Assembly: GCA_030625325.1 (NCBI GenBank)
Contig: DAOURA010000005.1
Location: forward strand, 1 to 36,029
DNA length: 36,029 nt
Reading direction: 5' to 3'
DNA from: Marinosulfonomonas sp.
GTDB taxonomy: Bacteria; Pseudomonadota; Alphaproteobacteria; Rhodobacterales; Rhodobacteraceae
Shown: one piece after another, positions 19,983 through 34,040 of the stretch
Layout of the letters: each line of letters begins with the position of its first letter
Numbering within the stretch: the first letter of the stretch is position 1
Position numbers and translations under genes: made by a program
Notes under the pieces: generated by a model
The model's database searches: none
The model's input: only the letters and a program-made list of their open reading frames with translations
What the model was told of the DNA's origin: nothing

Positions 19983-20705
19983 ATGATCCTTTACCCCGCA
20001 ATTGACCTGAAAGACGGCAACTGTGTGCGCCTGATCAAAGGCGACATGGAACAATCCACCGTGTTCAACAACAGCCCCGCCACACAGGCCCGCGCCTTTC
20101 AGGATGCGGGCTGCGAATGGCTGCATCTGGTGGATTTGAACGGCGCCTTTGCCGGTGAACCCGTAAACGGCGCCGCTGTTGATGCCATCCTGGCCGAAAC
20201 CTCCGTCCCGGCCCAACTGGGCGGCGGCATCCGCGACATGGCCACAATCGAAGGCTGGCTAACCAAGGGGCTGGCGCGCGTCATCCTGGGGACAGTCGCC
20301 GTTGAAAACCCCGATCTGGTGCGCCAGGCGGCGCGCGCCTTCCCCGGTCAGGTGGCCGTGGGGATAGATGCGCGCAACGGCAAGGTCGCAACCAAGGGCT
20401 GGGCCACGGAAACCGACGTGATGGTCACCGATCTGGCCCACAGCTTTGAAGACGCAGGTGTGGCCGCAATCATCTATACCGACATCAACCGTGACGGCGC
20501 AATGCAAGGCCCCAACGTCGCCGCCACCGCCGCCCTTGCCAACGCCGTTTCAATCCCGGTGATCGCCAGCGGCGGCGTGTCGTCACTGGACGATCTGGTG
20601 GCCCTGAAAAACTGCAATGCCCCGCTGAATGGTGCAATTTCCGGGCGCGCACTTTATGACGGGGCGCTGGACCTGAACGCGGCCATTGCGGCCCTTGCTG
20701 ACTAA
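19983..20705 (+). CDS. hisA: Phosphoribosylformimino-5-aminoimidazole carboxamide ribotide isomerase
   Basis: A 240-residue TIM-barrel isomerase for the fourth histidine step. The N-terminal catalytic Asp is in [18 protein letters not shown] (Asp8) and the second Asp is in [16 protein letters not shown] near residue 166. Phosphate-binding loops GGGIRD (about 80) and [12 protein letters not shown] (about 195) are present. It begins with MILYPAID at 19983, with AAGG just upstream, 140 bases after the antisense DUF2147 start. It is separated from hisF by 94 bases that carry a structured element. Confidence 0.96.
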
Positions 20706-20730
20706 TGTATCTTCTGTTCGAAAATATCCT

Positions 20731-20780
20731 CGGGGGGCTTGGCCGAATGGCCAAGTGGGGGCAGACGGCCCCCTCCTCCG
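20731..20780 (+). ncRNA. Three-way-junction RNA fold between hisA and hisF
   Basis: The hisA-hisF gap folds by eye into a compact junction. The outer stem is CGGGGGG (20731-20737) with TCCTCCG (20774-20780), including two G-U pairs. Inside are hairpin CTTGGCC/GGCCAAG (20738-20744 and 20749-20755, loop GAAT) and hairpin GGGGGC/GCCCCC (20757-20762 and 20768-20773). Only one base joins the arms. The G-U pairs become C-A mismatches on the other strand, so a plus-strand RNA is favoured. It starts with AAAATATCC, resembling the repeat at 28160 and 33997. It ends 19 bases before the hisF ATG. Confidence 0.55.
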
Positions 20781-20799
20781 TCAAAATCCGGGAAATACC

Positions 20800-21561
20800 A
20801 TGCTGAAAACCCGCATCATCCCCTGCCTTGACGTCGCCGAAGGGCGCGTCGTTAAGGGCGTCAACTTTGTTGACCTGATTGATGCCGGTGACCCGGTTGA
20901 AAGCGCGCGCGCCTATGACGCGGCGGGCGCGGATGAACTGTGCTTTCTGGACATCATGGCTACCGAAGAAAACCGTGGCACGATGTTTGATCTGGTCACC
21001 CGCACGGCCGAACAATGCTTTATGCCGCTGACCATCGGCGGCGGGGTGCGCACGTCTGATGATGTGCGCGCGCTGCTGCTGGCAGGGGCAGACAAGGTCA
21101 GCTTTAATTCAGCCGCCGTTGCCAACCCCGATGTGGTGGCCCACGCCGCCAACCGCTTTGGCAGCCAGTGTATCGTTGTGGCAATTGACGCCAAAACCGT
21201 AAGCCCCGGCAAATGGGAAATTTTCACCCACGGCGGGCGGCGTGCCACTGGCATTGATGCGGTTGAATTCGCGCGCACGGTTGTGGCCAAGGGCGCCGGT
21301 GAAATCCTGCTGACCAGCATGGACCGTGACGGCACCCGCGCCGGGTTCAACATCCCACTTACCCGCGCCATATCGGACGCGGTCAGTGTTCCGGTCATCG
21401 CGTCCGGCGGGGTTGGCACACTGGACCATCTGGTGGAAGGTGTCACCCAAGGTCACGCCAGCGCGGTGCTGGCTGCTTCAATATTTCACTTTGGTGACTT
21501 CACCATTCGCGAGGCCAAAGACCACATGGCCGCCGCAGGTATCCCAATGAGGATGACATGA
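20800..21561 (+). CDS. hisF: Imidazole glycerol phosphate synthase, cyclase subunit
   Basis: A 253-residue TIM barrel that with HisH makes imidazole glycerol phosphate and AICAR. It opens [19 protein letters not shown] with catalytic Asp11, and has the second Asp in [14 protein letters not shown] near residue 130. The phosphate loops [12 protein letters not shown] and [12 protein letters not shown] are intact. I start at ATG 20800, which gives the family N-terminus; the reading from 20686 would overlap hisA and run through the structured gap. Its stop overlaps the hisE start (ATGA-type coupling). Confidence 0.96.
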
Positions 21562-28159: not shown

Positions 28160-28191
28160 AAATATCCCCGCCGGAGGCACCCGCCACCGGC
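28160..28191. repeat. 19-bp intergenic repeat, copy A, with hairpin
   Basis: AAATATCCCCGCCGGAGGC at 28160-28178 is identical to 33997-34015. Here GCCGG-A-GGC (28170-28178) folds back on GCC-A-CCGGC (28183-28191) with a 4-base loop. The copy lies about 20 bases after the nnrD stop on the minus strand. The rest of the gap 28022-28198 shows nothing certain. Confidence 0.7.
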
Positions 28192-33979: not shown

Positions 33980-34040
33980 CCAATTCGAATTGGCCCAAAT
34001 ATCCCCGCCGGAGGCTCCGGGGCGAACAAAAACACGCCCC
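33980..34040. repeat. 19-bp intergenic repeat, copy B, with palindrome and hairpin
   Basis: AAATATCCCCGCCGGAGGC at 33997-34015 is identical to copy A. A perfect palindrome CCAATTCGAATTGG (33980-33993) precedes it and GGGGCG/CGCCCC (34019-34024 and 34035-34040) follows. As in copy A, it lies just after the stop of a minus-strand gene (34045). Confidence 0.7.

Follow-up and report, generated by a model that had tools for sequence, protein, structure and literature searches.

The short gap between hisA and hisF in the Marinosulfonomonas sp. stretch examined here (36,029 nucleotides of contig DAOURA010000005.1, hereafter the window) contains a compact and strongly folding element. This raises the question of whether it is an RNA structure particular to these two genes or a local copy of something more general, and, if the latter, which feature of it is conserved.

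The element between hisA and hisF

On the plus strand, the interval 20725 to 20790 has a minimum free energy (MFE) of -35.5 kcal/mol (z = -3.0), a stability reached by 1 of 200 dinucleotide shuffles. The features to which we refer below are as follows.

19983 to 20705, plus strand: hisA, the upstream gene
20710 to 20720, plus strand: leader TCTTCTGTTCG, common to copies in the same genome and family-wide, starting 4 nt past the hisA stop codon
20721 to 20731, plus strand: AAAATATCC followed by TC, the near-invariant AT-rich AAATAYYCC block, as judged by comparison of copies
20732 to 20736, plus strand: G-tract 1 (G1), proposed third (reverse-Hoogsteen) strand, from its length match to G2 and the mirror rule
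20737 to 20756, plus strand: variable hairpin 1 (GCTTGGCC GAAT GGCCAAGT), forming the loop between G1 and G2
20757 to 20761, plus strand: G-tract 2 (G2), the purine strand at the centre of the proposed triplex
20762 to 20768, plus strand: C-AGACG-G, comprising the loop of hairpin 2 and its closing pair
20769 to 20773, plus strand: C-tract, Watson-Crick partner of G2
20774 to 20780, plus strand: TCCTCCG tail, its last six bases pairing with 20731 to 20736 as an outer stem, in this copy only
20800 to 21561, plus strand: hisF, the downstream gene
28160 to 28178, plus strand: AAATATCCCCGCCGGAGGC, a type A repeat (AAATATCC block, no triplex core)
33997 to 34015, plus strand: AAATATCCCCGCCGGAGGC, the window's other type A copy

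A first-pass annotation of this DNA described two perfect hairpins, linked by a single base and enclosed by a 7 bp outer stem, with the plus strand as the folding strand. Both hairpins and the single linking U (20774) are borne out, as is the choice of strand (-35.5 for the plus against -30.0 for the minus strand of the window copy). The outer stem is also present, but its length is 6 pairs in the MFE structure, from C20731-G20780 to G20736-C20775 and including G20734.U20777, rather than 7. A sixth G (20737) follows G1 and forms the basal pair of hairpin 1 with U20756. The annotation also had the element begin with a sequence shared with repeats at 28160 and 33997, which needs amendment: the motif in question, AAAATATCC, occupies 20721 to 20729, just 5' of the start given for the element, and only AAATATCC recurs at the other two sites, where it is followed by CCGCCGGAGGC, a 3' part unlike that of the window copy.

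A dispersed repeat of the Rhodobacteraceae

Comparison of copies identifies the window element as a member of a dispersed intergenic repeat that extends across the Rhodobacteraceae; the suggestion of a structured repeat was thus well founded, the window copy being one of many both within its own genome and across the family, and it is the plus strand whose folding is under constraint. Further copies in the same genome (2.28 Mb in 214 contigs) were recovered by blastn, and a survey pattern in which the C-tract was not required detected the repeat in 118 of 149 sampled Rhodobacteraceae genera, at up to 140 copies per genome, with a reversed-pattern control near zero. Outside the family, one or two chance-like matches in about 20 genomes among 237 other alphaproteobacteria correspond to the noise level.

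The anatomy of the repeat was read from an alignment of copies across alphaproteobacterial hisF loci, located in hisA-hisF gaps and elsewhere. The order of parts is a pyrimidine-rich leader (variants include TTCATCTTGGCC, TTCATCTTTGC and TTCTTTGGG), AAATAYYCC, G1, a 3-nt linker or a variable hairpin, G2, a short loop and the C-tract. Hairpin 1 is free to vary in sequence, with compensatory changes, and in many copies it is replaced by the 3-nt linker. In most linker-type copies, as read by eye, the linker has the form T-NN and its last two bases pair with the two that directly follow the C-tract (CC/GG, CU/AG, GC/GC, GU/AC, AU/AU and UU/AA as linker/tail pairs), which supports hairpin 2. The outer stem behaves differently: pairing between G1 and the tail equals that of shuffled tails in every group, hisA-hisF included, so that this stem is peculiar to the window copy. 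Many copies are unable to form it, and consequently the three-way junction that had been proposed is ruled out as a conserved form.

In 22 of 97 distinct hairpins, the base of hairpin 1 reads TGA on its 5' strand and GA or A on its 3' strand, a combination that resembles tandem sheared G.A pairs; these candidate pairs would sit between G1 and the hairpin 1 stem.

A three-strand rule

G1 is part of no hairpin, yet its length tracks that of G2: the two are equal in 86% of 168 distinct copies, compared to a mean of 52% and a maximum of 62% in 5000 shuffles. Among 181 parsed copies, the third-strand, purine and pyrimidine tracts are mostly 5/5/5, 6/6/6 or 4/4/4 in length, and follow the class I order. 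Two kinds of pairing make competing predictions about the sequence of these tracts. If G1 forms Watson-Crick pairs with the C-tract, it should be identical to G2, whereas in a purine-motif triplex it should mirror G2; tracts containing A decide between them. With G2 alone fixed in a search of 295 genomes, GGAGGG was found with GGGAGG, GGGGAGGG with GGGAGGGG and GGGGGGAGGG with GGGAGGGGGG, and the reverse prediction also held, GGGAGG occurring with GGAGGG, GGGGAGG with GGAGGGG and GGGGGAGG with GGAGGGGG. Among asymmetric tracts, 59 rows (45 distinct strings) follow the mirror and triplex code, none are direct repeats and 13 are neither, several of these 13 being unrelated matches or a misplaced window; copies from the same genome are related and these counts are therefore not independent, the mirror forms coming from about 20 genera. 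Watson-Crick pairing between G1 and the C-tract, which predicts the direct repeats that were not found, is thereby ruled out.

The mirror rule is also kept across hairpin 1 (e.g. G026, G132). The G1 base that faces an A of G2 is A in 72 cases, T in 14, G in 12 and C in 1, and the T-for-A variants are evidence against the opposite strand forming a pyrimidine-motif triplex. The C-tract is the exact reverse complement of G2 in 21 of 23 full-length interrupted copies (from twenty additional stretches and other loci of the survey), and none of the 295 genomes contained an equally perfect hairpin 2 with a pyrimidine within G2 (GGYGGGC..GCCCRCC). The purine motif is built from antiparallel G*G.C, A*A.T and T*A.T triads (PMC4666352). 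The repeat thus combines the hallmarks of a class I purine-motif element, namely tract order with equal tract length, antiparallel mirror triads and an all-purine G2, and the relation conserved among copies is the one that an intrastrand triplex of the purine motif obeys. Triple helices of this motif reportedly do not arise in RNA (PMC4666352, citing Semerad and Maher 1994), which argues against the RNA-specific role, as a processing site or mRNA stability element, that was initially envisaged.

The window copy has pure G/C tracts, 5 triads and a 20-nt hairpin loop, and the mirror rule is invisible in pure-G tracts. Judged on its own bases, it follows the three-strand rule in length only, and its membership derives from the family.

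Genomic location of the copies

Genes were called with a codon model trained on tblastn-supported coding sequence. Both flanks were called for 134 intergenic copies, 60 of which lie between convergent genes, 72 between tandem genes and 2 between divergent genes, while 4 more lie inside called genes. Copy-free gaps of at least 40 nt at the same loci comprise 46 tandem, 32 divergent and 2 convergent cases; as the loci were picked for holding a copy, the convergent excess arises partly by construction, but the divergent shortage does not. Copies nearly always adjoin the 3' end of a gene, in either orientation, and divergent gaps are avoided. Between tandem genes, 33 copies are on the strand of the genes and 39 on the other strand. 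Some copies occur within co-directional gene runs, including hisA-hisF, and some only a few nucleotides from the next start codon. Replication-strand polarity gave no two-block pattern on a 3.2 Mb contig, on which the origin and terminus were not located.

At one locus (L138) the minus-orientation leader reads GGAGCAAGATGAAA, and the ATG within it is apparently the start codon of the next gene, such that this gene may owe its translation start to a repeat copy.

The first-pass annotation had looked to other hisA-hisF gaps for the same fold, and this expectation holds in part, with a copy in about 27 of 72 short gaps. Among 26 single copies in hisA-hisF gaps (two of them in longer gaps), 25 have plus orientation, and as a rule the copies lie directly 3' of a stop codon, either that of hisA or that of an inserted gene. 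On the hisA tree, presence at this site requires at least 15-16 changes versus a mean of 22.5-25.6 with shuffled labels, so that presence is partly inherited. However, the nearest relatives of the window genome have no copy at the site, and instead have longer gaps, several with a small gene, so that the window copy is either a lineage-specific acquisition or the survivor of repeated loss. Elsewhere the repeat lies beside other genes in many places. Both observations count against a role in tuning hisA versus hisF, and regulation of these genes by the repeat is unsupported.

The small gene between hisA and hisF in close relatives (L186, L198) encodes MKRFxYxILWIVV..., probably a membrane protein, and is missing from the window genome. 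Additionally, a GCGCTAnnn block recurs just 5' of hisF in many genera (e.g. L055, L074, L212), 3' of the repeat, and resembles the -10 region of a separate hisF promoter.

Relationship to known repeats

The closest likeness is to the PIT/BoxC/TM-ECO triplex repeats found in E. coli and in other proteobacteria (Hoyne et al. 2000; Hoyne and Maher 2002; Holder et al. 2015, PMC4666352), of which, on sequence grounds, we regard the Rhodobacteraceae repeat as a new family-wide variant. Both are dispersed and intergenic, carry the code of a purine-motif intrastrand triplex without strand bias, form inverted pairs and differ greatly in copy number between related genomes. However, TM-ECO is class II (C-tract, purine, third strand), with a stem of 9 and loops of 3-6 nt, whereas the Rhodobacteraceae repeat is class I (third strand, purine, C-tract), with a stem of 4-10, mostly 5, a third-strand loop that is often a whole hairpin, and a conserved AAATAYYCC leader. 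Given its reversed tract order and different consensus, it does not fit the class II TM-ECO/BoxC consensus, CCCTCNCCC-N3-6-GGGNGAGGG-N3-GGGNGAGGG. Location also differs, with the Rhodobacteraceae repeat at the 3' ends of genes and TM-ECO more often upstream of ORFs. Rhodobacter, Roseobacter, Paracoccus and Ruegeria are not named in the main text of PMC4666352.

REP/BIME elements with their RAYTs are likewise short, dispersed, intergenic and hairpin-forming, and often lie at gene 3' ends, but the Rhodobacteraceae repeat differs from them in its triplex core and in the lack of a Y1 transposase in most genomes. Two REP surveys (PMC3733652, PMC12306157) do not mention Rhodobacter, Paracoccus or Roseobacter.

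Rfam covariance models gave no match, either at the gathering threshold or at E <= 1, and open-access literature searched by sequence and by topic yielded no description of the repeat, although unnamed ITxF entries for these genomes may exist. The ITxF search admits stems of 6-15 and loops of 1-6 nt, which are the limits of one program and no physical requirement; the window copy falls outside them and other copies (6-10 triads, 3-nt linker) inside. Consequently, 5-triad or hairpin-loop copies, including that of the window, would be missed, and 6-triad linker copies might be listed without a name. The repeat is very common, yet apparently undescribed. From the same bacterial family, intercistronic hairpins of the R. 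capsulatus puf operon were reportedly described in a 1987 study cited in PMC6238624; by description these are similar in lying between co-directional genes and beside an AU-rich RNase E site, but they belong to a single locus, and we know of no dispersed repeat or three-strand rule associated with them.

Alternative explanations

A function in RNA would see the copies as 3'-UTR or intercistronic hairpin clusters, with RNase E cutting in the AU-rich AAAUA leader and GC-rich hairpins protecting mRNA ends, in parallel with the puf hairpins of R. capsulatus. The hairpins of the plus strand are indeed strong, they adjoin an AU-rich site of the kind preferred by RNase E of R. sphaeroides (PMC6238624), single hisA-hisF copies are nearly all in plus orientation, and wobble pairs in hairpin 1, read on the plus strand, are always G.U rather than A.C (7 vs 0; 6 vs 0 in 97 distinct hairpins). 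However, a G.T wobble in single-stranded DNA would explain this bias equally well, tandem copies elsewhere occur equally in both orientations, which would leave half of them antisense, and RNA hairpins need neither a G1 that mirrors G2 nor a purine-only G2 arm; we consider an RNA function unlikely, though a serious rival. Less likely still, in our estimation, is a bidirectional intrinsic terminator serving convergent genes. This would account for the enrichment between such genes and at 3' ends, and for the near-absence from divergent gaps, and the minus strand does present GGRGTATTT after the hairpins. Yet the plus strand has no regular U-tract after hairpin 2, the T-rich stretch of the minus strand is separated from the stem by about 10 nt, copies are found inside co-directional gene runs (hisA-hisF among them), and PIT elements of E. 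coli are without terminator activity (PMC4666352). A terminator scan had no match at the element, and, with a GC-rich stem that lacks a direct U-tract, a canonical Rho-independent terminator is ruled out.

The dispersed, intergenic distribution, the frequent inverted pairs and the absence of the window copy from its site in the nearest relatives would also suit a selfish repeat of the REP kind, mobilised by a Y1 (RAYT-type) transposase and free of host function, with its location reflecting tolerated insertions. However, Y1_Tnp (PF01797) is present in 15 of 149 family genomes, and in neither the window's own genome nor those with the highest copy numbers, ruling out a REP/RAYT system; moreover, the family-wide three-strand covariation would be left unexplained by selfish mobility unless the triplex were itself a mobility signal, and we judge a selfish repeat without host function to be about as improbable as a function in RNA, and likewise a serious rival. 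A G-quadruplex built from two G-hairpins, or H-DNA within double-stranded DNA, is very unlikely to be the structure under constraint. The G-tracts are adjacent, an antiparallel G-hairpin would place mirror positions in the same layer, and mirror repeats are the classical H-DNA sequence, but the C-tract would be unneeded, yet is present and complementary to G2, and the admission of T to G1 but not to G2 is a rule that neither structure needs.

A proposed mechanism and its significance

We think it probable, from the tract sequences and their position, that the plus strand of this Rhodobacteraceae-wide repeat is able to fold back on itself twice into a short intrastrand DNA triplex, probably serving as a 3'-end boundary. 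In the proposed fold, running from G1 (the third strand) through the linker or hairpin, G2 and a short loop to the C-tract, G1 would lie antiparallel to G2 through reverse-Hoogsteen pairing, and G2 would be Watson-Crick paired with the C-tract. Strand separation during negative supercoiling, transcription or replication would let the plus strand fold into hairpin 1 and the triplex, with melting beginning at the adjoining AT-rich AAATA block. At gene ends, and above all between convergent genes, such a triplex might slow polymerases or take up supercoils between neighbours. The hairpins would fold in any transcript too, and may shield mRNA 3' ends.

We infer that the triplex forms in cells, and in DNA; the preference for DNA over RNA is a matter of interpretation, given that the hairpins form in RNA as well and the wobble bias of hairpin 1 fits both. 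A boundary role at gene ends is suggested, with less confidence, by location. Most copies have pure G/C tracts of 5, and 5 triads are short for a triplex, with which double-stranded DNA competes; nor does a triplex alone account for the conserved leader. Furthermore, the relative from E. coli folds in vitro when single-stranded, and blocked DNA polymerase there, yet a triplex was not seen in vivo and the element had no promoter or terminator activity (PMC4666352), which tempers the claim for the Rhodobacteraceae repeat. A more speculative proposal, which we advance tentatively and do not ourselves favour, is that the whole family uses a conserved DNA triplex as a functional component of the chromosome, in which the AT-rich leader, perhaps bound by a dedicated protein, would nucleate a class I intrastrand triplex that marks transcription-unit boundaries at the 3' ends of genes.

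Whether DNA triplexes function in living cells is a long-open question, for which the triplex repeats of E. coli have provided structure in vitro but no function. If the triplex reading is correct, the three-strand covariation would be, to our knowledge, the first evolutionary evidence of a natural DNA triplex under selection. The triad code is obeyed in about 20 genera when tracts vary, an outcome that neither a simple hairpin nor slippage nor a direct repeat can yield. The question would also become testable, as these are easily handled bacteria with dozens of natural copies, including natural mirror and T-for-A variants. Moreover, the triplex reading would explain a very common repeat of a major marine and soil family.

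A related repeat

The two other copies in the window belong to a related type of repeat, here termed type A. About 60 copies of the related AAATATCCCCGCCGGAG are present in the same 2.28 Mb genome, compared to none with a reversed-pattern control. The type A sequence AAATATCCCCGCCGGAGGC has its AAATATCC block and its leaders in common with the triplex repeat, and has a different, almost invariant 3' part. Type A copies also occur as inverted pairs (L015/L016, L020/L021, L010/L011), arranged either leader-to-leader on both sides of a CCAATTCGAATTGG palindrome or face to face across an AATTTTTCGCGCGAAAAATT palindrome.
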